Source: Streptomyces sp. HUAS MG91 (GTDB lineage Bacteria > Actinomycetota > Actinomycetes > Streptomycetales > Streptomycetaceae). Taken from it: 64,000 bases of DNA. Under the pieces are notes generated by a model, which saw only the letters and a program-made list of their open reading frames with translations, was not told the DNA's origin and made no database searches. The stretch covers positions 6,262,001 through 6,326,000 of the forward strand of contig NZ_CP159534.1 in NCBI RefSeq assembly GCF_040529335.1. The letters are read 5' to 3'. Below, piece by piece: positions 49,929-63,290 of the stretch. Every line of letters begins with the position of its first letter. Within the stretch, counting starts at the first letter, position 1. Position numbers and translations under genes: made by a program.

Positions 49929-50171
49929 CCGGCCGGGGCGGGCTTGGACCCGTGCGGCGCGGGAAATAACCCGGGTGACGAGACGGCCCGTACCGTGCGA
50001 CCATCTTCAGGTCGACGGCGCGGGCCGGCCGACCGCCCGGCCCCGGACACCCGTCCGGGAATCCCGGGGGCGGCCCGAGCGTTGTCAGCAGTGACGGGCG
50101 AGACCCAGGTCACGTGCCGCACCCGGAAGCACTCCGGACCACATCCGAATCCCAGCGACGCAAAGGATCCA

Positions 50172-51665
50172 ATGACCTCCTCTTCTTCCCCTTCCCAGGA
50201 CGCGCAGAGCTTCGCGCAGAACCACACCGAAGGTCTTCGGGCCGATGCCCTGATGGAAGAGGACGTCGCCTGGAGCCACGAGATCGACTCGGACCGGGAC
50301 GGTGATCAGTACGACCGTTCCGAGCGTGCGGCGCTGCGCCGTGTCGCCGGTCTGTCCACCGAGCTGGAGGACGTCACCGAGGTCGAGTACCGGCAGCTCC
50401 GCCTGGAGCGCGTGGTCCTCGTCGGCGTGTGGACGTCCGGCACGGTGCAGGACGCGGACAACTCCCTCGCGGAGCTGGCCGCCCTCGCCGAGACCGCGGG
50501 CGCGCTGGTCCTCGACGGCGTCACCCAGCGCCGTGACAAGCCCGACGCAGCGACGTACATCGGCTCCGGCAAGGCGCTGGAGCTGCGCGACATCGTCCTC
50601 GAGACCGGAGCCGACACCGTCGTCTGCGACGGTGAGCTCAGCCCCGGCCAGCTCATCCACCTCGAAGACGTCGTCAAGGTCAAGGTGGTCGACCGGACCG
50701 CCCTGATCCTCGACATCTTCGCCCAGCACGCCAAGTCCCGAGAGGGCAAGGCGCAGGTCGCCCTCGCGCAGATGCAGTACATGCTGCCGCGACTGCGCGG
50801 CTGGGGTCAGTCGCTGTCCCGGCAGATGGGTGGCGGCGGCGGTGGCGGCATGGCCACCCGCGGTCCCGGTGAGACCAAGATCGAGACGGACCGGCGACGG
50901 ATCCGCGAGAAGATGGCGAAGATGCGCCGTGAGATCGCGGAGATGAAGACGGGCCGAGACATCAAGCGCCAGGAGCGCAAGCGCAACAAGGTGCCCTCGG
51001 TCGCCATCGCCGGGTACACGAACGCGGGCAAGTCCTCGCTGCTCAACCGCCTCACGGGCGCGGGCGTCCTGGTGGAGAACGCCCTGTTCGCCACCCTCGA
51101 CCCGACCGTGCGCCGGGCCGAGACGCCGAGCGGCCGCCTGTACACGCTGGCCGACACGGTCGGATTCGTCCGGCACCTGCCGCACCACCTCGTCGAGGCG
51201 TTCCGCTCCACGATGGAGGAGGTCGGCGACTCCGACCTGATCCTGCACGTGGTCGACGGCTCGCACCCCGTGCCGGAGGAGCAGCTGGCCGCCGTGCGCG
51301 AGGTGATCCGGGACGTCGGCGCCACCGACGTGCCGGAGATCGTGGTGATCAACAAGGCGGACGCGGCGGACCCCCTGGTCCTCCAGCGGCTGCTGCGCAA
51401 CGAGAAGCACGCGATCGCTGTCTCGGCCCGCACCGGCGCCGGCATCGACGAGCTGCTCGCGCTCATCGACGCCGAACTGCCGCGGCCCGAGGTCGAGATC
51501 GAGGTACTCGTGCCGTACACGCAGGGCAAGCTCGTCGCACGGGCGCACAGCGAGGGCGAGGTGATCTCCGAGGAGCACACCGCGGAGGGCACGCTGCTCA
51601 AGGCGCGCGTGCACGAGGAACTAGCGGCGGAGTTCGCGTCGTTCGTTCCGTCGGCCGCCGGCTGA
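50172..51665 (+). CDS. hflX: GTPase HflX
   Basis: HflX is a ribosome-associated GTPase that splits stalled or hibernating 70S ribosomes. The 497-residue protein has an N-terminal HflX domain, a Gly-rich loop (MGGGGGGGMATRGPGETKIE) and a G domain with G1 GYTNAGKS (281-288), G3 DTVGF and G4 NKAD. The first 50 residues are an acidic extension. AAAGGA precedes the ATG at 50172. In mycobacteria hflX likewise follows dapF in this region. Confidence 0.94.
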   Translation: MTSSSSPSQDAQSFAQNHTEGLRADALMEEDVAWSHEIDSDRDGDQYDRSERAALRRVAGLSTELEDVTEVEYRQLRLERVVLVGVWTSGTVQDADNSLAELAALAETAGALVLDGVTQRRDKPDAATYIGSGKALELRDIVLETGADTVVCDGELSPGQLIHLEDVVKVKVVDRTALILDIFAQHAKSREGKAQVALAQMQYMLPRLRGWGQSLSRQMGGGGGGGMATRGPGETKIETDRRRIREKMAKMRREIAEMKTGRDIKRQERKRNKVPSVAIAGYTNAGKSSLLNRLTGAGVLVENALFATLDPTVRRAETPSGRLYTLADTVGFVRHLPHHLVEAFRSTMEEVGDSDLILHVVDGSHPVPEEQLAAVREVIRDVGATDVPEIVVINKADAADPLVLQRLLRNEKHAIAVSARTGAGIDELLALIDAELPRPEVEIEVLVPYTQGKLVARAHSEGEVISEEHTAEGTLLKARVHEELAAEFASFVPSAAG

Positions 51666-51750: not shown

Positions 51751-52974
51751 CTACTGGCCGGCGAACTTCTCGCTCACGGACTCGTAGACCGCCTTGGCCT
51801 CCTTGCCCAGCCGCGGACCGGCCAGCCACCCCGACGTCACCGGGCCGATCGAGGTGTTGGACACGAGCGCGGGCGTGCCGTCGGCTCCCTGCCCGACCCA
51901 GCCGCCGCCCGACGAACCGCCGGTCATGGTGCAGCCGATGCGGTACATCGTCGGGTCGGTCTGGGCCAGCGAGAGGCGGCCCGGCCTGTCGGCGCACTGG
52001 AAGAGCCGCTGCCCGTCGAACGGCGGCGCCGCCGGATAGCCCTTCGCCGTGAGCTGGGAGATCTTCGGCACGGCCGGCGCGTTGAAGTCCACCGGCAGCG
52101 CCGAACCGACCGTCTCCTCCAGGGACTTGTCGGTCGTGCCCTTCTCCGGCTTCACGTGCAGCACCGCGAAGTCGTACGGGGCGCCGGCGCCGCCGGTCGG
52201 ACCGCCCTGCGCGATCCACTGGTCGGAGGTCTGCGCCGCGTCCGCCCACCAGACACCGTACGGAGCGATCTCCTCCCGCGTGACACCCTGGAGTTGCGCC
52301 GCGGACTTGGCGCTGTCGTTGTACGAGGGGACGAACGCGAGGTTGCGGTACCAGCCACCGTTCTTGCCCGCGTGCACACAGTGGCCGGCCGTCCAGACCA
52401 TGTTGGACTTGCCGGGGTGCGCGGGGTCGGTGACCACGGTCGCCGAGCACTGCGCCTGACCCTCAGGGGTGTCGAAGACCAGCTTGCCCGCGTACGGGAC
52501 GTTCTGGTGGTACGTGGCCGGGACTGCCGCCGCCTTCACGGGCCGCGGTTCCGGATCGGTCACCCCCTGGTCACCGGAGAGATCGCTGTCGTCGACCTGG
52601 CCGCCCGGGTTCTTGTCGGCGTCACGCATCCGGTCCGTGTCCCACAGACCGGCGATGATGGGATTGACGAAGTCCTGCGCCTCGCGCAGCCACTTGTCCC
52701 TGTCCCAGTTCTTCCACTCGCCGTTCTTCCACTTGTCCAGATCGAACCCGTGCTCCTTGAGCCGCTTCTTGATGCTGTCGGGTATCTGGATCTTGTCCCC
52801 GCCCGCGGTCGCGGACGTGGTCGGCTTCTCGTCCGCGTTGTCGTTGCTCGTCCCACAGGCCGTGGCGGTCAGGGCGAGCGCCGCACCGAGCGCGACCGCC
52901 GCCGCCACCGGGGACGTCCTGCCGCGCGCGCTCCGGGCGCGGCGAGCGGCGAACAACGGGCGTATGGGTCGCAT
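51751..52974 (-). CDS. Exported trypsin-like serine protease (lipoprotein)
   Basis: The 407-residue protein begins with an Arg-rich signal peptide and a lipobox-like TATAC (Cys at about 40). The trypsin fold follows with the catalytic residues visible as His in WTAGHCVH, Asp in YDFAVLHV and Ser in MTGGSSGGGW. A spacer of about 100 polar residues with Trp/Lys/Asp repeats (DLDKWKNGEWKNWDRDKW) lies between the anchor and the protease domain. Substrate unknown. Its start is about 420 bp from the divergent aminotransferase gene. Confidence 0.88.
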   Translation of the reverse strand: MRPIRPLFAARRARSARGRTSPVAAAVALGAALALTATACGTSNDNADEKPTTSATAGGDKIQIPDSIKKRLKEHGFDLDKWKNGEWKNWDRDKWLREAQDFVNPIIAGLWDTDRMRDADKNPGGQVDDSDLSGDQGVTDPEPRPVKAAAVPATYHQNVPYAGKLVFDTPEGQAQCSATVVTDPAHPGKSNMVWTAGHCVHAGKNGGWYRNLAFVPSYNDSAKSAAQLQGVTREEIAPYGVWWADAAQTSDQWIAQGGPTGGAGAPYDFAVLHVKPEKGTTDKSLEETVGSALPVDFNAPAVPKISQLTAKGYPAAPPFDGQRLFQCADRPGRLSLAQTDPTMYRIGCTMTGGSSGGGWVGQGADGTPALVSNTSIGPVTSGWLAGPRLGKEAKAVYESVSEKFAGQ

Positions 52975-53171
52975 GTCGTGAATCCCCCTGGGCTTCTTGG
53001 TGGTTGTGCCGCCGTACGGGTGCGCTGGGCAAGGGGTGCGCTCCGCCGCCCCTCCGCGTCCGAACGGCATCCCACACTATGCCGATGCCGTCGGGGACGA
53101 CCGACGGAACAGCAACGGTTCCGTCACGGAGGGATCTTGGACGCGGCGCCGTTCGTTGAGACCGCCCCTCT

Positions 53172-53397
53172 CGGCAAAGGTCTCGTCATGTGTCGCACGA
53201 GTATCCGCTCCACCCGTGGCCCTCCGCTCCCGGCGTCGTTGGGTACGTACGGGGGATCCGCATCAGGCGTTCAGTCCTCGGCCCGTCCTGGCTCACCGCC
53301 CTGGCGGGCCTCGGTCGCGCCCGCGTGGCATCGCCCCGCCCACAGGTGAGTCGGCAGCCGCTGCCGGCCGTACATCCCAGCGGGAGGACCAACAGCC
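53172..53397 (+). promoter_or_regulatory. Duplicated leader, copy A (upstream of the aminotransferase)
   Basis: This leader has a paralogous copy 1,725 bp downstream. Conserved blocks are 53231-53291, which contains GGCGTCGTTGGGT, TACGGGGGATC and GTCCTGG, and 53346-53397, which contains GTGAGTCGGC, GCTGCCG and TCCCAGCGGGAGGACCAACA with the ribosome binding site. Between them lie about 54 variable bases. A hairpin GTCGGC/GCCGGC (53350-53355 with 53363-53368) sits just before the ribosome binding site. Most of the gap 52975-53171 shows nothing I can name. Confidence 0.7.
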
Positions 53398-54855
53398 GTG
53401 GCCGTGACCGATCCTGCGCCCGTGGCGCTGCCCGCTCCGCACGACGGGGCGGACCGCGAGGCATCCGCATGCGACAGCGCCGTGCACGAAGGCATCCTGC
53501 GCCGGCAGTCCGCGCGCGAGTCGGCGGCCCGCACGTACGCGCGCTCGCTGCCGATCGTGCCCGTGCGGGCCCGCGGACTCACCATCGAGGGCGCCGACGG
53601 CCGCCGCTATCTGGACTGCCTCTCCGGCGCGGGAACCCTGGCGCTCGGCCACAACCACCCCGTCGTCCTCGAGGCCATCCGCAAGGTCCTCGACTCCGGC
53701 GCCCCGCTGCACGTCCTCGATCTGGCCACCCCGGTGAAGGACGCCTTCACCACCGAGCTGTTCCGCACCCTGCCGCCCGGGCTCGCCGACCGCGCCCGCA
53801 TCCAGTTCTGCGGCCCGGCCGGGACGGACGCCGTCGAGGCCGCCCTCAAACTGGTCCGCACCGCCACCGGCCGCTCCGGCCTCCTCGCCTTCACCGGCGC
53901 CTATCACGGCATGACCGCAGGGGCGCTCGAAGCGTCCGGCGGCGCCCAGGACGTCCGGGTCACGCGCCTGCCCTACCCCCAGGACTACCGCTGCCCCTTC
54001 GGCGTCGGCGGCCCGCGCGGTGCCGAACTCGCCGCCCGGTGGACCGAGTCGCTGCTCGACGACACCAAGTCCGGAGTGCCCCGGCCCGCGGGCATGATCC
54101 TCGAACCCGTGCAGGGCGAGGGCGGCGTCATCCCCGCCCCGGACGCCTGGCTGCGCCGGATGCGGACCATCACCGAGAAGCGCTCGATCCCGCTGATCGC
54201 CGACGAGGTGCAGACCGGCGTCGGCCGCACCGGCGCCTTCTGGGCCGTCGACCACAGCGGTGTCGTACCGGACGTCATGGTCCTGTCCAAGGCGGTCGGC
54301 GGCAGCCTGCCGCTCGCCGTGGTCGTCTACCACGAGGACCTCGACGTCTGGAGCCCCGGCGCCCACGCCGGAACCTTCCGCGGCAACCAGCTCGCCATGG
54401 CGGCCGGCGCCGCCACCCTCGCCCACGTCCGCGAGAACCGGCTCGACCAGCGCGCCGCCGACCTCGGCGCCCGCATCCTGGGCCAACTGGAGCAGGCCGC
54501 AAAGGAGTTCGCGTGCGTCGGTGACGTCCGCGGACGCGGCCTGATGATCGGCATCGAGATCGTCGACCCGACGGGAGAGGCGTCCGGGCCGACCGCCGAC
54601 GACGCGGGGAACCCGGCCGACGACACCCTCCTCGGCGCCCCTTCGGCATCGCCGCTTCCCGCGGCCCCCGCCCTCGCCGCCGCGGTGCGCGACGCCTGCC
54701 TCGACCGGGGCCTGATCGTCGAACTGGGCGGCCGCCACTCCAGCGTCGTACGGCTCCTGCCACCGCTCACCCTCACCGACGAACAGGCCGCGGCCGTCGT
54801 CGACCGGCTCACGGACGCCCTCGCCGCCGTGTCCCGCACGGCGCACTGCCCGTAG
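53398..54855 (+). CDS. Diaminobutyrate-2-oxoglutarate aminotransferase family protein (siderophore locus)
   Basis: The 485-residue class III PLP aminotransferase makes L-2,4-diaminobutyrate from aspartate semialdehyde in siderophore and ectoine pathways. Visible residues are Asp269 (IADEVQTGVGRTG) and the PLP lysine 298 (VLSKAVGGSLP), plus GPAGTDAVEAALK. It is followed by NIS synthetase genes, so it probably supplies the diamine building block rather than ectoine. GTG at 53398 follows GGGAGG in the duplicated leader. The first 30 residues are Ala/Pro-rich. A spacer of about 25 residues (GEASGPTADDAGNPADD) near residue 395 is unusual. Confidence 0.88.
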   Translation: MAVTDPAPVALPAPHDGADREASACDSAVHEGILRRQSARESAARTYARSLPIVPVRARGLTIEGADGRRYLDCLSGAGTLALGHNHPVVLEAIRKVLDSGAPLHVLDLATPVKDAFTTELFRTLPPGLADRARIQFCGPAGTDAVEAALKLVRTATGRSGLLAFTGAYHGMTAGALEASGGAQDVRVTRLPYPQDYRCPFGVGGPRGAELAARWTESLLDDTKSGVPRPAGMILEPVQGEGGVIPAPDAWLRRMRTITEKRSIPLIADEVQTGVGRTGAFWAVDHSGVVPDVMVLSKAVGGSLPLAVVVYHEDLDVWSPGAHAGTFRGNQLAMAAGAATLAHVRENRLDQRAADLGARILGQLEQAAKEFACVGDVRGRGLMIGIEIVDPTGEASGPTADDAGNPADDTLLGAPSASPLPAAPALAAAVRDACLDRGLIVELGGRHSSVVRLLPPLTLTDEQAAAVVDRLTDALAAVSRTAHCP

Positions 54856-54896
54856 ATCCGAGGACCCTCGGACGAGCCCCACCGCCCGCCGGACGG

Positions 54897-55122
54897 CGGC
54901 AAAAGCTCCGCCATACGTCCGGCAAGTCCTCGGCGTGCCCGTGTCTTTCTTGGCGCGGCGTCGTTGGGTGCCTACGGGGGATCTGTAGTCGGCGCTCAGC
55001 GTTCGGCCTGTCCTGGTGCGCGCCCGGACGGGTTCCCGTGGTTGTGGCCGCCCGCTCGTCCCGCCGCCACGTGAGTCGGCGAGCGCTGCCGACCCTTCGT
55101 CCCAGCGGGAGGACCAACAGCT
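54897..55122 (+). promoter_or_regulatory. Duplicated leader, copy B (upstream of the first IucA/IucC gene)
   Basis: This copy matches copy A with no net insertion over at least 225 bases. By my hand count, 49 of 61 bases agree in the first conserved block (54956-55016) and 47 of 55 in the second (55071-55125). The hairpin is GTCGGC/GCCGAC (55075-55080 with 55088-55093), keeping pairing by an A-U where copy A has G-U. The ribosome binding site GGGAGGACC is identical. The 550-bp gap 54856-55405 has no other feature except the vestigial frame listed next. Confidence 0.7.
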
Positions 55123-55263
55123 GTGCCTGCGAGCGACCCGGTGTCCACGCCGCTGCCCGTCCCGTACGGAGCGCGGAGCGGGGGACCGGCGGCGCCCGGC
55201 CTCCCACGCCCCCGCACCCCGGTCACGGCCGGTGCCGTCGCGAGGTGGGCCCGGCACCGATAG
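55123..55263 (+). pseudogene. Vestigial copy of the aminotransferase N-terminus
   Basis: The GTG at 55123 aligns with the aminotransferase start inside the duplicated leader. The first residues resemble it: PASDPVSTPLPVPYG here against AVTDPAPVALPAPHD there, after the initiator. The frame then drifts and stops at 55263 after 46 codons. It is either debris of the duplication or a translated leader ORF. Confidence 0.45.
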
Positions 55264-55405
55264 CCGCACCGGAGCCGTCGGCAGGCTCCGCCCCACGTCC
55301 CAGACCACGCCCCACCCCAGGCACCACCGACGTACCCGGTGGCTCACCGGAGCAGAGCCGGACCACCGCCGTACGGAGCCCACCACACCGAGCAAGGAAG
55401 CACTC

Positions 55406-57460
55406 TTGAACGCCACACCCGCATCCGACGGCCGTCCCCGTCCCACCGCCGGCGGAAGCTGTGACACGCAGACCCCGGAGGCGCAGGAACGCGAAACGGT
55501 TCCCCGGCAGAAGAACAGCGGCCGGGAGGCCGGGCGTCCACGCACGTCCACCGTCGACCTCCTGGACCATCCGGATGCCGACACCGCCGCCCAGGTGGCG
55601 GCCATCGAGAACCTTCTGCGCTGCTGGGTGCGCGAGAACGACATGGCTCCTCCCTCCCTCGATCTCCTGCGGATCCCGCTGCCCGCCAGCGGCACCGCTC
55701 TCCTGGTCCCCGTCCACTACTGGTCGCCCACCGGGTGGCACCGCTTCGGCCTGCCCCACTTCGAGAACGGCCCGCACGGCGCTCCGTGCGTCGACGCCGT
55801 GACCCTGGCCGCCCTGCTCGGCCGCGAGTCGGCGCGCACCGGTGCGGACGAGGCCCCGGCCGACGCCAACGGCAGCCGCCCGCACACCTCGGCCGCGGCG
55901 CCGGGCGCGGACGTCGACCCGGCTTCGCCGCCGAGCGCCGCCGAGGCCCCGGAACCCGGCACCGCCTCCCTCGACGCCGGCCCCCGTCCGTCCGGCGACA
56001 GCGGTGATCTGGTCGGCCGGGTCGCCGACTCCGTGCGCCGCACCGCCGAGTTCATCGCCGACCGCCGGCGCAGGCCGACCGACGCCCCCGACACCTTCCT
56101 CGCCGCGGAACAGGCCCTCCTCCTCGGTCACCCGCTGCACCCGACGCCGAAGAGCCGCGAGGGACTCTCCGAGGCCGAAGCACGCCTCTACTCACCGGAG
56201 TTGCGCGGCTCGTTCCCCCTGCACTGGCTCGCTGTCGCACCGGACGTCCTCGCCCACGACTCCGCCTGGACCGAACGGGGCCGCACCGTCCCCGCCGCCG
56301 ACCTGACCGCCCGCCTCGCCGGCCCCGGTCTCGCCGTGCCCGACGGCCACGCCGTCCTGCCGCTGCACCCCTGGCAGATCCGTGAACTCCGGCACCGCCC
56401 GGCCGTCGCCGAACTCCTCGACGCCGGCCTGCTGATCGACCTCGGCCCGCACGGCGAGCCCTGGTTCCCCACCTCCTCCGTCCGCACCCTGTACCGGTCC
56501 GGCGCTCCGGCCATGCTGAAGCTGTCGCTCGGCCTGCGCATCACCAACTCCCGCCGCGAGAACCTCCGCAAGGAACTCCACCGCGGTGTCGAGGTCCACC
56601 GACTGCTGCGCAGCGGAATCGCCGAGCGATGGCGCGCGGCCCACCCGGGCTTCGACATCGTCCGCGACCCTGCCTGGCTCGCCGTGGACCTCCCGGACGG
56701 CAGCGCGGCCCCCGGCCTCGACGTGATGATCCGCAACAACCCCTTCGGCCCGGCCGACGACGCCTCCTGCATCGCCGGGTTCGTCTCGCCCAGGCCGCCG
56801 GCCGACATCGACGCCGCCGGTCCGCTCGGCCGCACCCCGGTGGCCTCGCGCCTGGAGGCCGTCATCACCCGCCTCGCGGCCCGCACCGGACGCCCCGTCG
56901 GCGCCGTCTCCGCCGAGTGGTTCCTGCGCTATCTCGAACACGTCGTGCGCCCCGTGCTCTGGCTCGACAGCGAGGCAGGCGTCGCCCTCGAGGCCCACCA
57001 GCAGAACACGCTGCTGCTGCTCGACCCCGACGGCTGGCCCACCGGCGGCCGCTACCGCGACAACCAGGGCTACTACTTCCGCGAGTCCCACCGCGCCGCA
57101 CTCGACCGGCGGCTGCCCGGCATCGGCGCGCAGAGCGACACCTTTGTCTCCGACGAGGTCACCGACGAGCGGTTCGCCTACTACCTCGCCATCAACAACG
57201 TCCTCGGCCTCATCGGCGCCTTCGGATCCCAACAGCTCGCCGACGAGCGGGTGTTGCTCGCGGCGTTCCGCCGCTTCCTCACCGAGGCCGCCACCGGCCC
57301 CACCCGGCTGAGCAGCCCGCTGCCGAGCCGGCTCCTCGACTCGCCGACCCTGCGCTGCAAGGCGAACCTGCTCACCCGGCTGCACGGCCTCGACGAGCTC
57401 GTCGGCCCGGTCGACACCCAGTCCGTCTACGTCACCATCGCCAACCCCCTCCATTCCTGA
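55406..57460 (+). CDS. NIS siderophore synthetase, IucA/IucC family (first)
   Basis: The enzyme condenses a carboxylic acid such as citrate with an amine or alcohol through an adenylate. The 684-residue protein keeps the family sites: HPLHPTPKSREGLSEAE (ATP and citrate binding), LPLHPWQIRELRHR, SVRTLYRSG, KLSLGLRITNSRREN and VALEAHQQN. An acidic low-complexity insert near residues 140-190 adds length to the usual 580-620. TTG at 55406 is chosen because GCAAGGAAG is correctly spaced and the conserved first helix follows. It lies downstream of leader copy B. Confidence 0.9.
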   Translation: MNATPASDGRPRPTAGGSCDTQTPEAQERETVPRQKNSGREAGRPRTSTVDLLDHPDADTAAQVAAIENLLRCWVRENDMAPPSLDLLRIPLPASGTALLVPVHYWSPTGWHRFGLPHFENGPHGAPCVDAVTLAALLGRESARTGADEAPADANGSRPHTSAAAPGADVDPASPPSAAEAPEPGTASLDAGPRPSGDSGDLVGRVADSVRRTAEFIADRRRRPTDAPDTFLAAEQALLLGHPLHPTPKSREGLSEAEARLYSPELRGSFPLHWLAVAPDVLAHDSAWTERGRTVPAADLTARLAGPGLAVPDGHAVLPLHPWQIRELRHRPAVAELLDAGLLIDLGPHGEPWFPTSSVRTLYRSGAPAMLKLSLGLRITNSRRENLRKELHRGVEVHRLLRSGIAERWRAAHPGFDIVRDPAWLAVDLPDGSAAPGLDVMIRNNPFGPADDASCIAGFVSPRPPADIDAAGPLGRTPVASRLEAVITRLAARTGRPVGAVSAEWFLRYLEHVVRPVLWLDSEAGVALEAHQQNTLLLLDPDGWPTGGRYRDNQGYYFRESHRAALDRRLPGIGAQSDTFVSDEVTDERFAYYLAINNVLGLIGAFGSQQLADERVLLAAFRRFLTEAATGPTRLSSPLPSRLLDSPTLRCKANLLTRLHGLDELVGPVDTQSVYVTIANPLHS

Positions 57461-57515: not shown

Positions 57516-58412
57516 GTGCCCCCGACCGATGCGAGCACCGACGCCGGCACCACTCCTGTCGCCGCCGACCCCGACGGCATCTCCGCCCACGCGTCCGAAC
57601 CCGGACACCGCCCGGAGAGCAGCGACTGCCAGGACACCCTGGACCTGCGGCTGCCCGACGAACTGATCGCGCTCATCGCCGAGCAGGACACGTCCCGTCC
57701 TGCCCGCACCGAACCGGACGAGGGCCATCGCGGCGCCTCCGGGGCCACGCACCCCGAGGCACCGGCCCCGCAGGCCAAGACCTCCTTGATCAAGCCCCCT
57801 GACCTCACGGCCCGTGCCGAACACGATCTCCTCGACGACGTGGGGGAGTGGGGCCCCGTCACCACCGGCTCGGGCGTGTTCCAGCTCGTCCCCGCCCGCA
57901 TCGACCGCGACCTGGCCCTCATCAGCCGTTGGATGAACGACCCGGCCGTGGCCGCGTTCTGGGAACTGTCCGGACCGGACGAGGTCACCGAGCGCCATCT
58001 GCGACCCCAGGTGGAGGGCGACGGACGCAGCGTGCCCTGCCTGGGCGTCCTGGACGGCAGGCCCATGAGCTACTGGGAGGTCTACCGCGCGGACCTCGAC
58101 CCGCTGGCCCGCCACTACCCCGCTCGCCCGCACGACACCGGGATCCACCTCCTCATCGGTGGCGTCGCCAATCGCGGCCGAGGACTCGGCACCACGCTGC
58201 TCCAGGCCGTCTCCGACCTCGTACTCGACCATCGTCCGCAATGCGCACGCGTCGTCGCAGAACCTGACCTTCGCAACACCCCCTCCGTCTCCGCCTTCTT
58301 GAGCGCCGGATTCCGCTTCTCCGCCGAGGTGGATCTCCCCGACAAACGGGCCGCGCTCATGGTCCGAGACCGGGCCTTGCGCGCCGTGCTCCGACCCAGT
58401 CACTCTCAGTAA
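57516..58412 (+). CDS. Siderophore-type GNAT acyltransferase (IucB/MbtK family)
   Basis: The 298-residue protein has a poorly conserved N-terminal half of about 110 residues and a C-terminal acyltransferase domain with the family blocks YWEVYRADLDPLARHYPARP and DTGIHLLIGGVANRGRGLG. Related enzymes acylate N-hydroxy-lysine or diamines. It lies between two IucA/IucC genes. GAGAGGAG precedes the GTG at 57516. The acyl donor and acceptor are not known; the N-terminal extension is atypical. Confidence 0.87.
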   Translation: MPPTDASTDAGTTPVAADPDGISAHASEPGHRPESSDCQDTLDLRLPDELIALIAEQDTSRPARTEPDEGHRGASGATHPEAPAPQAKTSLIKPPDLTARAEHDLLDDVGEWGPVTTGSGVFQLVPARIDRDLALISRWMNDPAVAAFWELSGPDEVTERHLRPQVEGDGRSVPCLGVLDGRPMSYWEVYRADLDPLARHYPARPHDTGIHLLIGGVANRGRGLGTTLLQAVSDLVLDHRPQCARVVAEPDLRNTPSVSAFLSAGFRFSAEVDLPDKRAALMVRDRALRAVLRPSHSQ

Positions 58413-58452: not shown

Positions 58453-60408
<1,956 letters not shown>

Positions 60409-60448: not shown

Positions 60449-62422
60449 ATGACGAAGCCCTCACTCCCCGATCTCCTGCATGCCGCCGTGACCGCTGTCG
60501 GCGGCACCGAGCGCCCTGGCCAGGTCACCATGGCCGAGACCGTCGCCGAGGCGATCGACGACGGTTCCCATCTGCTCGTCCAGGCGGGCACCGGCACCGG
60601 AAAGTCGCTCGGCTATCTGGTGCCGGCCCTGGCTCACGGGGAGCGCGTCGTGGTGGCGACCGCCACCCTGGCGCTGCAGCGTCAGCTCGTCGAGCGGGAC
60701 CTCCCGCGCACGGTCGAGTCCCTGCATCCCCTGCTGCGGCGCCGTCCCGACTTCGCCATGCTCAAGGGCCGGTCGAACTATCTGTGCCTGCACCGGCTCC
60801 ACGAGGGCGCGCCCCAGGAGGAGGAAGAGGGCCTGTTCGACCAGTTCGAGGCGGCCGCGCCGACGAGCAAGCTGGGCCAGGACCTGCTGCGGATGCGCGA
60901 CTGGGCGGACGAGACGGAGACGGGGGACCGCGACAACCTCACCCCCGGCGTCTCCGACAAGGCGTGGTCCCAGGTGTCCGTCTCCTCGCGCGAGTGCCTC
61001 GGGGCCTCGAAGTGCGCGTACGGACAGGAATGCTTCGCCGAGATGGCCCGCGAGCGCGCCAAGCTCGCCGACGTCATCGTCACCAACCACGCACTCCTCG
61101 CGATCGACGCGATCGAGGGCGCCCCGGTGCTGCCCCAGCACGAGGTGCTGATCGTCGACGAGGCCCATGAACTGGTCTCGCGGGTCACCGGTGTCGCCAC
61201 GGGCGAGCTGACACCCGGGCAGGTCAACCGCGCGGTGCGCCGCGCCGCCAAGCTCGTCAACGAGAAGGCCGCCGACCAGCTGCAGACCGCCGCCGAGGGC
61301 TTCGAGCGGATCATGGAGCTGGCCCTGCCGGGCCGCCTCGAAGAGATCCCCGAGGACCTGGGATACGCGCTGATGGCACTGCGCGACGCGGCCCGCACCG
61401 TGATCACAGCCCTGGGCACCACCCGGGACAAGTCCGTCCAGGACGAGGACGCGGTGCGCAAGCAGGCCCTCGCCTCGGTCGAGACGATCCACGACGTGGC
61501 GGAGCGGGTGACGAACGGCTCGGAGTGGGACGTCGTCTGGTACGAGCGCCACGACCGCTTCGGCGCCTCGCTGCGCGTCGCCCCCATGTCCGTATCGGGG
61601 CTGCTCCGCGAGAAGCTCTTCACGGACCGCTCGGTGGTCCTGACCTCGGCGACCCTGAAACTCGGCGGGGACTTCAACGGGGTGGGGGCATCGCTAGGCC
61701 TCGCCCCCGAAGGCACCACCGGCGACGACCTGCCCGTGTGGAAGGGCGTCGACGTCGGCTCACCCTTCGACTATCCGAAGCAGGGCATCCTCTACGTCGC
61801 CAAGCACCTTTCACGCCCCGCGCGCGAGGGCACCCGCACCGACATGATGGACGAGCTGACCGAGCTGATGCAGGCCGCGGGCGGCCGCACCCTCGGACTC
61901 TTCTCGTCGATGCGGGGCGCACAGGCCGCCGCCGAGGAACTGCGCGGCCGGATCCCGGAGTTCCCGATCCTGCTCCAGGGCGAGGACACCCTCGGCGAGC
62001 TGATCAAGGCCTTCGCGGCGGACCCGAAGACCTGCCTGTTCGGCACGCTCTCCCTGTGGCAGGGAGTGGACGTGCCGGGCGCCAGCTGCCAGCTGGTGGT
62101 CATGGACAAGATCCCGTTCCCACGCCCCGACGACCCGCTGATGAGCGCCCGCCAGAAGGCCGTGGAGGACGCCGGCGGCAATGGCTTCATGGCGGTGGCG
62201 GCGACCCACTCCGCCCTGCTGATGGCGCAGGGAGCGGGCCGTCTCGTCCGTGCGACGGGCGACCGGGGTGTCGTCGCGGTCCTCGACCCCCGCCTGGCGA
62301 CGGCCCGCTACGGCAGCTACCTGCGGGCCTCCATGCCGAACTTCTGGTACACCACGGACCGCAATCAGGTGCGCCGCTCCCTGGCGGCGATCGACGCGGT
62401 GGCGAAGGCCGACGAGAAGTAG
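60449..62422 (+). CDS. DinG/XPD-like ATP-dependent DNA helicase
   Basis: The 657-residue superfamily 2 helicase has Walker A QAGTGTGKS, motif II VDEAHE, four cysteines for an iron-sulfur cluster (NYLCLHR, SSRECLGASKCAYGQECF), SATL, and the motif VI region QGAGRLVRATGD. DinG-type enzymes unwind 5'-3' and act on R-loops, G-quadruplexes and stalled forks. It is convergent with lexA. TAGGGT lies 9 nt before the ATG; no LexA box was found there. Confidence 0.9.
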   Translation: MTKPSLPDLLHAAVTAVGGTERPGQVTMAETVAEAIDDGSHLLVQAGTGTGKSLGYLVPALAHGERVVVATATLALQRQLVERDLPRTVESLHPLLRRRPDFAMLKGRSNYLCLHRLHEGAPQEEEEGLFDQFEAAAPTSKLGQDLLRMRDWADETETGDRDNLTPGVSDKAWSQVSVSSRECLGASKCAYGQECFAEMARERAKLADVIVTNHALLAIDAIEGAPVLPQHEVLIVDEAHELVSRVTGVATGELTPGQVNRAVRRAAKLVNEKAADQLQTAAEGFERIMELALPGRLEEIPEDLGYALMALRDAARTVITALGTTRDKSVQDEDAVRKQALASVETIHDVAERVTNGSEWDVVWYERHDRFGASLRVAPMSVSGLLREKLFTDRSVVLTSATLKLGGDFNGVGASLGLAPEGTTGDDLPVWKGVDVGSPFDYPKQGILYVAKHLSRPAREGTRTDMMDELTELMQAAGGRTLGLFSSMRGAQAAAEELRGRIPEFPILLQGEDTLGELIKAFAADPKTCLFGTLSLWQGVDVPGASCQLVVMDKIPFPRPDDPLMSARQKAVEDAGGNGFMAVAATHSALLMAQGAGRLVRATGDRGVVAVLDPRLATARYGSYLRASMPNFWYTTDRNQVRRSLAAIDAVAKADEK

Positions 62423-62504: not shown

Positions 62505-63290
62505 TCAGACGCGCCGCAGAACGGCCACCACCTTGCCCAGGATGGTCGCCTCGTCACCGGGGATCGGCTGGTACGCGGAGTTGTGCGGGAGCAGCCACAC
62601 ATGCCCGTCCTCGCGCTTGAAGCGCTTGACGGTGGCCTCGCCGTCGAGCATGGCCGCGACGATGTCGCCGTTCTCCGCGACCGGCTGGCGGCGGACCGTG
62701 ACCCAGTCGCCGTCACAGATCGCGGCCTCGATCATCGAGTCGCCGACGACCTTCAGCACGAACAGCTCGCCGTCGCCGACCAGCTGCCGGGGGAGCGGGA
62801 AAACATCCTCGACCGACTCCTCGGCGAGGATCGGGCCACCGGCCGCGATCCGGCCGACCAGCGGCACGTACGAAGCCGCCGGCTTACCGGTCGTGTCCGT
62901 CGGCTGCGCGCTGGGCTGGTCCGAGCCGCGGACCTCGTAGGCCCGGGGGCGGTGCGGGTCGCGACGCAGGAAGCCCTTGCGCTCGAGCGCCATCAGCTGG
63001 TGGGCGACCGACGATGTGCTGGACAGGCCCACCGCCTGGCCGATCTCCCGCATCGACGGCGGGTACCCCCTGCGCTGCACCGAGTCCCGGATGACCTCGA
63101 TCACGCGGCGCTGGCGGTCCGTGAGCCCCGAACTGTCCGCCCGGATCCCTGGAGGTCGGCCGGGCAGAGAGCGCCCGGGCTTGGGCCCCTCCTGGCTCAT
63201 GGATGCGTCATTCATGGCATGCACCGGCTCGAGTCGGCCCTGGGCGCGGCCCTGGGCAGTGATGGTGGCACTGTCTGCGGTCGTGGTCAC
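62505..63290 (-). CDS. lexA: SOS repressor LexA
   Basis: The 261-residue repressor has an N-terminal winged helix ([20 protein letters not shown] to [17 protein letters not shown], about 55-110) and a C-terminal S24 protease domain with self-cleavage site Ala150-Gly151 (GRIAAGGPI), Ser185 (GDSMIEA) and Lys222. The N-terminal arm of about 50 residues is longer than in E. coli and usual for streptomycetes. GTG at 63290 follows GAGAGGGG. A LexA box about 70 bases upstream indicates autoregulation. Confidence 0.96.

Follow-up and report, generated by a model that had tools for sequence, protein, structure and literature searches.

A unit consisting of a predicted promoter and the 5' leader of an aminotransferase gene is present twice in a siderophore locus of Streptomyces sp. 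HUAS MG91. The window analyzed is a stretch of 64,000 nucleotides (contig NZ_CP159534.1, forward strand positions 6,262,001 to 6,326,000). One copy precedes the aminotransferase gene and the other is located between this gene and a siderophore synthetase gene. We judge it probable that the doubled unit has a promoter core of the ECF type, most probably of the BldN class, that drives the aminotransferase and the synthetases together. The core would consist of a -35 element CCCGTnnY, a 16 bp spacer, a -10 element CGTTGG and a transcription start in or next to TACGGGGGA, and the developmental sigma factor BldN would read it. The contribution of the leader RNA would not go beyond local hairpins and a strong ribosome-binding site. 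The locus and its neighbors are composed of the following genes:

49944-51665: HflX-like GTPase
51751-53070, minus strand: protein without a Pfam match
53398-54855, plus strand: class-III aminotransferase, diaminobutyrate--2-oxoglutarate transaminase family by its top NCBIfam matches
55123-55263, plus strand: ORF of 46 codons behind copy 2, remnant of the aminotransferase N-terminus
55406-57460, plus strand: IucA/IucC-family siderophore synthetase, start read as TTG at 55406
57516-58412, plus strand: GNAT acyltransferase
58453-60408, plus strand: second IucA/IucC-family siderophore synthetase
60449-62422: helicase
62505-63290, minus strand: LexA

Of 392 genomes sampled from the genus, 311 encode the aminotransferase (E up to 1e-130). 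We take the locus to be the counterpart of S. coelicolor SCO5799-SCO5801, judging by gene content, the neighboring lexA and the numbering. The likeness lies in an aminotransferase and siderophore genes near lexA, and the comparison is one of genes and not of promoters. SCO5799-SCO5801 is called a putative siderophore cluster in a passage of PMC7324645, and SCO5803 is given as LexA in a legend of PMC4895711. The latter paper also reports a primary transcription start at 6,338,652 for a 'siderophore' cluster of S. coelicolor. Two further features were observed. A Pro-Thr repeat run (PTPTPTPT...) is found at about 58760-58810, toward the N-terminus of the second synthetase. An inverted repeat, ACGGAAC-7-GTTCCGT, is located at 53104-53124 between the minus-strand gene and copy 1, and similar letters (GGTTCCGTCACGG) are present upstream in a number of relatives. 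A role as operator for the divergent gene is conceivable.

A sequence-only reading of this DNA had described a leader duplicated at a constant offset of 1,725 bp without net insertions, with two conserved blocks around a variable spacer. This description is accurate. The copies share 148 of 226 positions over 53172-53397 in an ungapped alignment. The earlier hand counts, 49/61 over 53231-53291 and 47/55 over 53346-53400, are exact, and the middle (53292-53345) shares only 23 of 54. The core at 53231-53400 has 119 of 170 identities between copies, and the next best plus-strand place in the window has 77 of 170. A search of the 8.6 Mb genome gave an E of about 1e-28 between the two copies and no third copy; the remaining matches were short pieces, none longer than 56 bp, and their E values were 0.007 or worse. 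Two points need correction. Both copies do have a Shine-Dalgarno sequence and a GTG, but the homology does not end there and runs about 45 bp into coding sequence (29 of 43 identities over 53401-53443). In addition, the GTG of copy 2 (55123) opens the 46-codon ORF and not the IucA/IucC-type gene. The parts of the unit are listed below, with invariant positions counted over three species:

53172-53443, plus strand: copy 1, with the upstream box, the predicted promoter, the 5' leader, its ribosome-binding site and the initial aminotransferase codons
54897-55168, plus strand: copy 2, upstream box/promoter/leader unit that follows the aminotransferase gene and precedes the IucA/IucC-type synthetase gene, also found in genomes G059 and G312
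53176-53190, plus strand: upstream box of copy 1, AAAGGTCTCGTCATG, overlapping stretch 15/15 invariant
54901-54915, plus strand: upstream box of copy 2, overlapping stretch 8/15 invariant
53215-53220, plus strand: predicted -35 of copy 1, CGTGGC
53237-53242, plus strand: predicted -10 of copy 1, CGTTGG
54940-54945, plus strand: predicted -35 of copy 2, CGTGTC
54962-54967, plus strand: predicted -10 of copy 2, CGTTGG
53248-53260, plus strand: predicted start-site/initially transcribed block of copy 1, TACGGGGGATCCG, 13/13 invariant
54973-54985, plus strand: predicted start-site/initially transcribed block of copy 2, TACGGGGGATCTG, 13/13 invariant
53382-53400, plus strand: Shine-Dalgarno GGGAGGACC and GTG start of copy 1, stretch 25/25 invariant
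55107-55125, plus strand: Shine-Dalgarno GGGAGGACC and GTG of copy 2, stretch 23/25 invariant

A promoter motif is present at both copies, in line with the earlier proposal that two genes of one pathway share a regulatory element upstream. We scanned the region upstream of the aminotransferase in 84 loci: the best 80 of at least 477 found, together with G059, G312, G103 and the window. The best 80 relatives are all named Streptomyces, except one 'Actinobacteria bacterium'. The best pair was sought as CCCGTnnY or a near form followed by NGTTG, with a spacing of 13-19 bp allowed. The spacing is 16 bp in 77 of the 84 loci and 17 bp in seven (73 and seven among the best 80 of at least 477). With one shuffle per locus, no pair was found in 41 of 80 and the remainder were scattered over 13-19 bp; distal stretches contained no pair in 43 of 76. 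A promoter score of 5.5 or more was reached in 83 of 84 loci, the weak exception being L030 (4.0), compared to 9 of 840 shuffles and none of 76 distal stretches. The two elements are thus found at near-fixed spacing at the equivalent place before orthologous genes, as in ECF-type promoters. The -35 takes the forms CGTAAC (32 loci), CGTGAT (25), CGCTTC (12) and others (15). The -10 is mostly GTTGG, followed by a conserved TACGTACGGGGGA in about half of the loci.

The motif also singles out both copies within the window. A matrix was built from 69 sites of species outside the window's clade, leaving out L017, L018, L019, L084, the four added genomes and the seven loci with 17 bp spacing. Over the 127,940 positions on both strands, it ranked copy 2 first (22.9) and copy 1 second (18.5), with the third position scoring 12.5. 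The first conserved block of the sequence-only reading would correspond to the -10/start region, with the predicted -35 just upstream of it, and the second block to the presumed ribosome-binding end of the leader. Transcription of copy 1 would start in or near TACGGGGGATCCG. A 15-base pattern of the start region has 14 matches with one or two mismatches in the window's genome, compared to one for the reversed pattern. Further upstream, 58 of the 84 loci contain a box like AAGGATCTT (at most two mismatches) that ends 9-10 bp from the -35; in 24 loci no such box was found. The window contains AGGGATCTT at 53130-53138, which resembles this box but is located about 75 bp further up. A similar AAAGGTCTC box stands nearer the window promoter than AGGGATCTT.

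As a yardstick for the sigma factor we took the sigma-BldN consensus to be CGTAAC-N16-CGTTGA. The siderophore promoters resemble it in the 16 bp spacing, the NGTTG -10 and, in 32 of 84 loci, the CGTAAC -35. They differ from sigma-BldN promoters in a -10 that is mostly GTTGG, in a target that is a siderophore locus and, in the window, in a drifted -35 that has lost the AAC of the consensus (CGTGGC and CGTGTC, with CGTTGG as the -10 of both copies). This drift makes sigma-BldN a likely rather than a demonstrated reader of the window promoters. The motif is common to this locus and to bldM. The gene recognized as bldM in the window's genome, by its Response_reg and GerE domains, has CGTAAC-N16-CGTTGA upstream, and CGTAAC-N16-CGTTG matches that genome three times, at bldM and at two other places taken as chance. 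Promoters described as sigma-BldN (ECF) dependent in Streptomyces include those of bldM, chaplins and rodlins (passages of PMC12096830 and PMC6295645).

We also searched six genomes, chosen for a CGTAAC -35 at the siderophore promoter, with CCGTAAC-N17-GTTG. The 16 matches fall at three kinds of place, and the reversed pattern gave four. They lie before the aminotransferase in six genomes (by construction), before bldM in six, the gene being read in two and identified by near-identical letters in the other four, and before a Prim-Pol gene in four. Besides the siderophore gene, the strict motif is therefore found only at bldM and Prim-Pol, and the class looks like that of BldN. The Prim-Pol gene (L207:1501-2187, also L197, L205 and L208) was read in all four genomes, and PF09250 is found in the one scanned with Pfam, L207. 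Its GTG is located 8-9 bp behind the -10, which would give a rough place for the start site. The gene is probably leaderless and is a candidate for another BldN target.

It is possible, though rather unlikely, that a different ECF sigma factor, whose consensus resembles that of sigma-BldN, reads the same promoter. Streptomyces have dozens of ECF sigma factors, 42 being given for S. tsukubaensis in the abstract of PMC7730460. The -35 has diverged in 52 of 84 loci (CGTGAT, CGCTTC, CGTGGC and others), and the CGTGAT form marks the siderophore locus only: of its 13 matches in 10 genomes, nine are at the aminotransferase and four, with other spacing, were taken as chance. The CGTGAT form is absent at the aminotransferase in the genome of L018, whose -35 differs. 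Against another factor stand the 32 loci with the same CGTAAC as at bldM and the short list of places found by the strict motif in the six CGTAAC genomes. We favor a promoter of the BldN class.

The leader could instead be the functional part of the unit. A ligand-sensing, protein-binding or Shine-Dalgarno-hiding RNA, kept in two copies for control of both messages, is a reading that we regard as improbable. The sequence-only reading had suggested selection for a shared RNA or protein site, had recognized no known riboswitch family and had recommended comparison with Rfam and a covariance-model search. The absence of a known family is upheld. Rfam 15 gave no match in the window at the gathering score. 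At E up to 5, one match was found in 53000-55500, inside the aminotransferase gene, and none at either leader. The unit shares with Rfam riboswitch and leader families its place as the 5' leader of a biosynthetic gene but differs in having no match at the gathering score. With the covariance model, R1, the leader was detected in 45 of the 84 sources (E up to 0.01), and no general structure emerged. Over 199 genomes it matches in 44, of which 43 belong to the genus and one, weak (E 0.008), to another genus of the class. There is one match per genome, except two each in the window's genome and G059, and the match lies just before the aminotransferase in the 24 of the 44 genomes for which the coordinates of this gene were compared by eye.

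A leader that is chiefly regulatory RNA is not borne out. A model of sequence only was searched over 31 of the 84 sources. Among the 23 outside the window's clade, six match end to end, 10 match only in parts at the ends and seven do not match at the leader, so that 17 match only ends or nowhere. Outside the clade the leader ends persist best, whereas length and middle vary; the distance from -10 to GTG ranges from 56 nt (L071) to 170 nt (L019). Folding was assessed for 46 of the 84 loci, all with -35 forms other than CGTAAC, and for three second copies. The fold energies equal those of shuffles, with mean whole-leader z values of -0.03 in the clade (11 leaders) and 0.41 elsewhere (38). The two window leaders give -0.16 and 0.72, and the exception is the whole leader of G312 copy 2 (-2.63). 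The leaders L069, L060, L094 and L021 form strong local hairpins at non-homologous places, possibly reflecting only GC richness. RNAalifold on three groups holding 39 of the 49 extracted leaders, and on A1, gave no general structure.

Two small hairpins are found within the clade:

53280-53309, plus strand: hairpin P1 of copy 1, clade-limited, 17/31 invariant, not above neutral
55005-55034, plus strand: hairpin P1 of copy 2, overlapping stretch 28/31 invariant, 55001-55035 with a fold z of -2.26
53350-53368, plus strand: hairpin P2 of copy 1, clade-limited, some compensatory changes
55075-55093, plus strand: hairpin P2 of copy 2

In P2, both bases have changed in four of the eight pairs, each in one or more of 11 sequences, and 93% of cells are paired. 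P1 and P2 together contain nine doubly changed cells, compared to a shuffle mean of 3.7 and a value reached by three of 500 shuffles, in a structure drawn from the same sequences that were counted. Two of the five measures are within the shuffles: pairs with double changes, 5 compared to 2.9 (51/500), and pair types, 15 compared to 14.5 (271/500). P1 is absent in L018 and is not kept in L019. Taken together, fold z values are near zero, the middle is mostly unconserved outside the clade and compensation is limited to the clade, unlike in structured leaders. Fourfold sites provide a neutral baseline of 0.687 in three species, to which hand-picked segments were compared with uncorrected p values. 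The block after the start, P1 and the Shine-Dalgarno stretch of copy 2 changed less than these sites (13/13, 28/31 and 23/25), whereas its -35 and -10 (7/9 and 6/8) are not above the expectation, which favors some role for the RNA.

Sequestering of the Shine-Dalgarno sequence was suggested in some groups on visual inspection. For the clade, RNAalifold also suggests it, pairing an invariant CCGCC with the Shine-Dalgarno stretch without variation. The unpaired probabilities are intermediate, 0.04-0.57 in the clade with a mean of 0.44 elsewhere, and this candidate was dropped. A riboswitch was likewise rejected, as Rfam, RNAalifold, the covariance model, the sequence-only model and the fold z-scores show no general structure. 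The data do not support a shared aptamer. The RNA may have a local function, and the compensatory changes in the small clade hairpin of the second block are compatible with a minor RNA role.

How the second copy arose was addressed with other genomes. Among 391 other genomes of the genus, it was found in G059 (89%) and G312 (71%). The remaining matches do not exceed 133 bp, except in G103, where they correspond to the single leader of that genome and to the start of the synthetase. A set of 296 relatives, overlapping the first sample, added none at E up to 1e-8, a search that would miss diverged copies. The upstream box of copy 2 is degenerate in the window and G059, and the G312 version is nearer copy 1. 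A tree of 14 leaders unites the three copies 2 (support 100) and, in another group, the copies 1 of those genomes (95), which suggests that one event preceded the split of the three genomes. The window's species and at least two others would have had a common ancestor in which the second unit became placed between the aminotransferase gene and the synthetase gene. Since the tree joins copy 2 with L084, though weakly (62), the unit could equally have been acquired from a relative or have come from a tandem duplication.

L019 contains a half copy between the aminotransferase and the synthetase, with box, -35 and -10 and no leader behind. It scores 39 against its own first promoter (best of 500 shuffles, 29), 36 against window copy 1 (reached by none of 500), 26 against G312 copy 2 (12 of 500) and 21 against window copy 2 (209 of 500). 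No half copy was found in five control intergenic regions. Since it resembles first copies but shows no such likeness to window copy 2, a separate event may have produced it.

Copy 2 might also be a decaying, inert relic of a duplicated aminotransferase start, which we think quite doubtful. It does carry the N-terminus remnant, an ORF of 46 codons in the window, 41 in G059 and 65 in G312 that is similar to the aminotransferase at its start only. Two synonymous and eight non-synonymous changes relative to G059 give no sign of selection on its protein, and a protein role was rejected on this ground. The full copy is confined to three genomes, and its -35 and -10 are conserved no better than neutral sites. 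An inert relic does not agree with the higher matrix rank of copy 2 than of copy 1, or with the conservation of TACGGGGGATCTG, P1 and the Shine-Dalgarno stretch above 0.687, the segments being hand-picked. A working promoter in copy 2, which we prefer, would drive the synthetases. Its position between the genes means that both parts of the pathway would be started by one sigma factor at one growth stage.

IdeR/DmdR iron-box promoters are known from siderophore clusters. The window shares with these the siderophore genes, but an iron box is missing near either copy. The sequence-only reading had noticed none, and this agrees with our scan: the best match to the 19-bp box consensus has eight mismatches within 52900-55500. 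We therefore rejected IdeR/DmdR iron-box regulation of the window. Among the best 80 of at least 477 relatives, matches with as few as five mismatches within 600 bp upstream were found only in L086 and L088. In these the half-like box GTAAGGCGAACCTT (5/19 mismatches) is located about 170 bp before the match, upstream of the promoter, and some species may add iron control.

Published expression data of S. coelicolor are consistent with developmental timing. According to PMC3610822, SCO5799 (log2 0.4/1.3/1.8 at 24/48/72 h) and SCO5801 (0.8/1.8/1.3) rise in the second mycelium. In the same data bldN is at 4.6/4.3/4.2 and bldM is likewise up. SCO2782, assigned to desferrioxamine in a passage of PMC7324645, is at 1.1/-3.7/-3.2; together with SCO0497-SCO0499 (coelichelin), it is raised or almost unchanged at 24 h and reduced at the two later times (PMC3610822). 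The rise is modest, parallels that of bldN and comes from another species matched by gene content and not by promoter sequence. BldN is described as regulated by iron availability in a passage of PMC7730460. In PMC8262882, iron depletion lowered the activity of a bldN reporter, and addition of desferrioxamine E partly restored ordered expression. If the pathway belongs to the BldN regulon, this dependence of bldN on iron and siderophores would connect iron supply with aerial growth in a positive loop.

The kind of promoter is known, and the siderophore target and the duplication are new to us. The passages of the literature searched contained no link of BldN with this siderophore locus, though we do not claim its absence from print. 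A link between iron and aerial growth has been suspected from effects of iron on bldN, and no siderophore target was found in the portions of the literature examined. In place of a vague 'possible new riboswitch', a siderophore locus that has received little study now has a concrete promoter prediction. The locus also provides a case of a promoter-leader module doubled within one gene cluster. Three genomes show the doubling, and a fourth has a copy of the promoter alone at the equivalent place. The probable promoter of the aerial-growth type suggests that the siderophore is made on a developmental program. More tentatively, and with the balance of our judgment slightly against it, the siderophore pathway of most Streptomyces may be a direct member of the sigma-BldN regulon, under developmental and not iron-box control, in a positive loop, with the unit doubled in one clade to balance the two messages. 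If sigma-BldN reads the promoter, iron acquisition would be wired into the switch to aerial growth.
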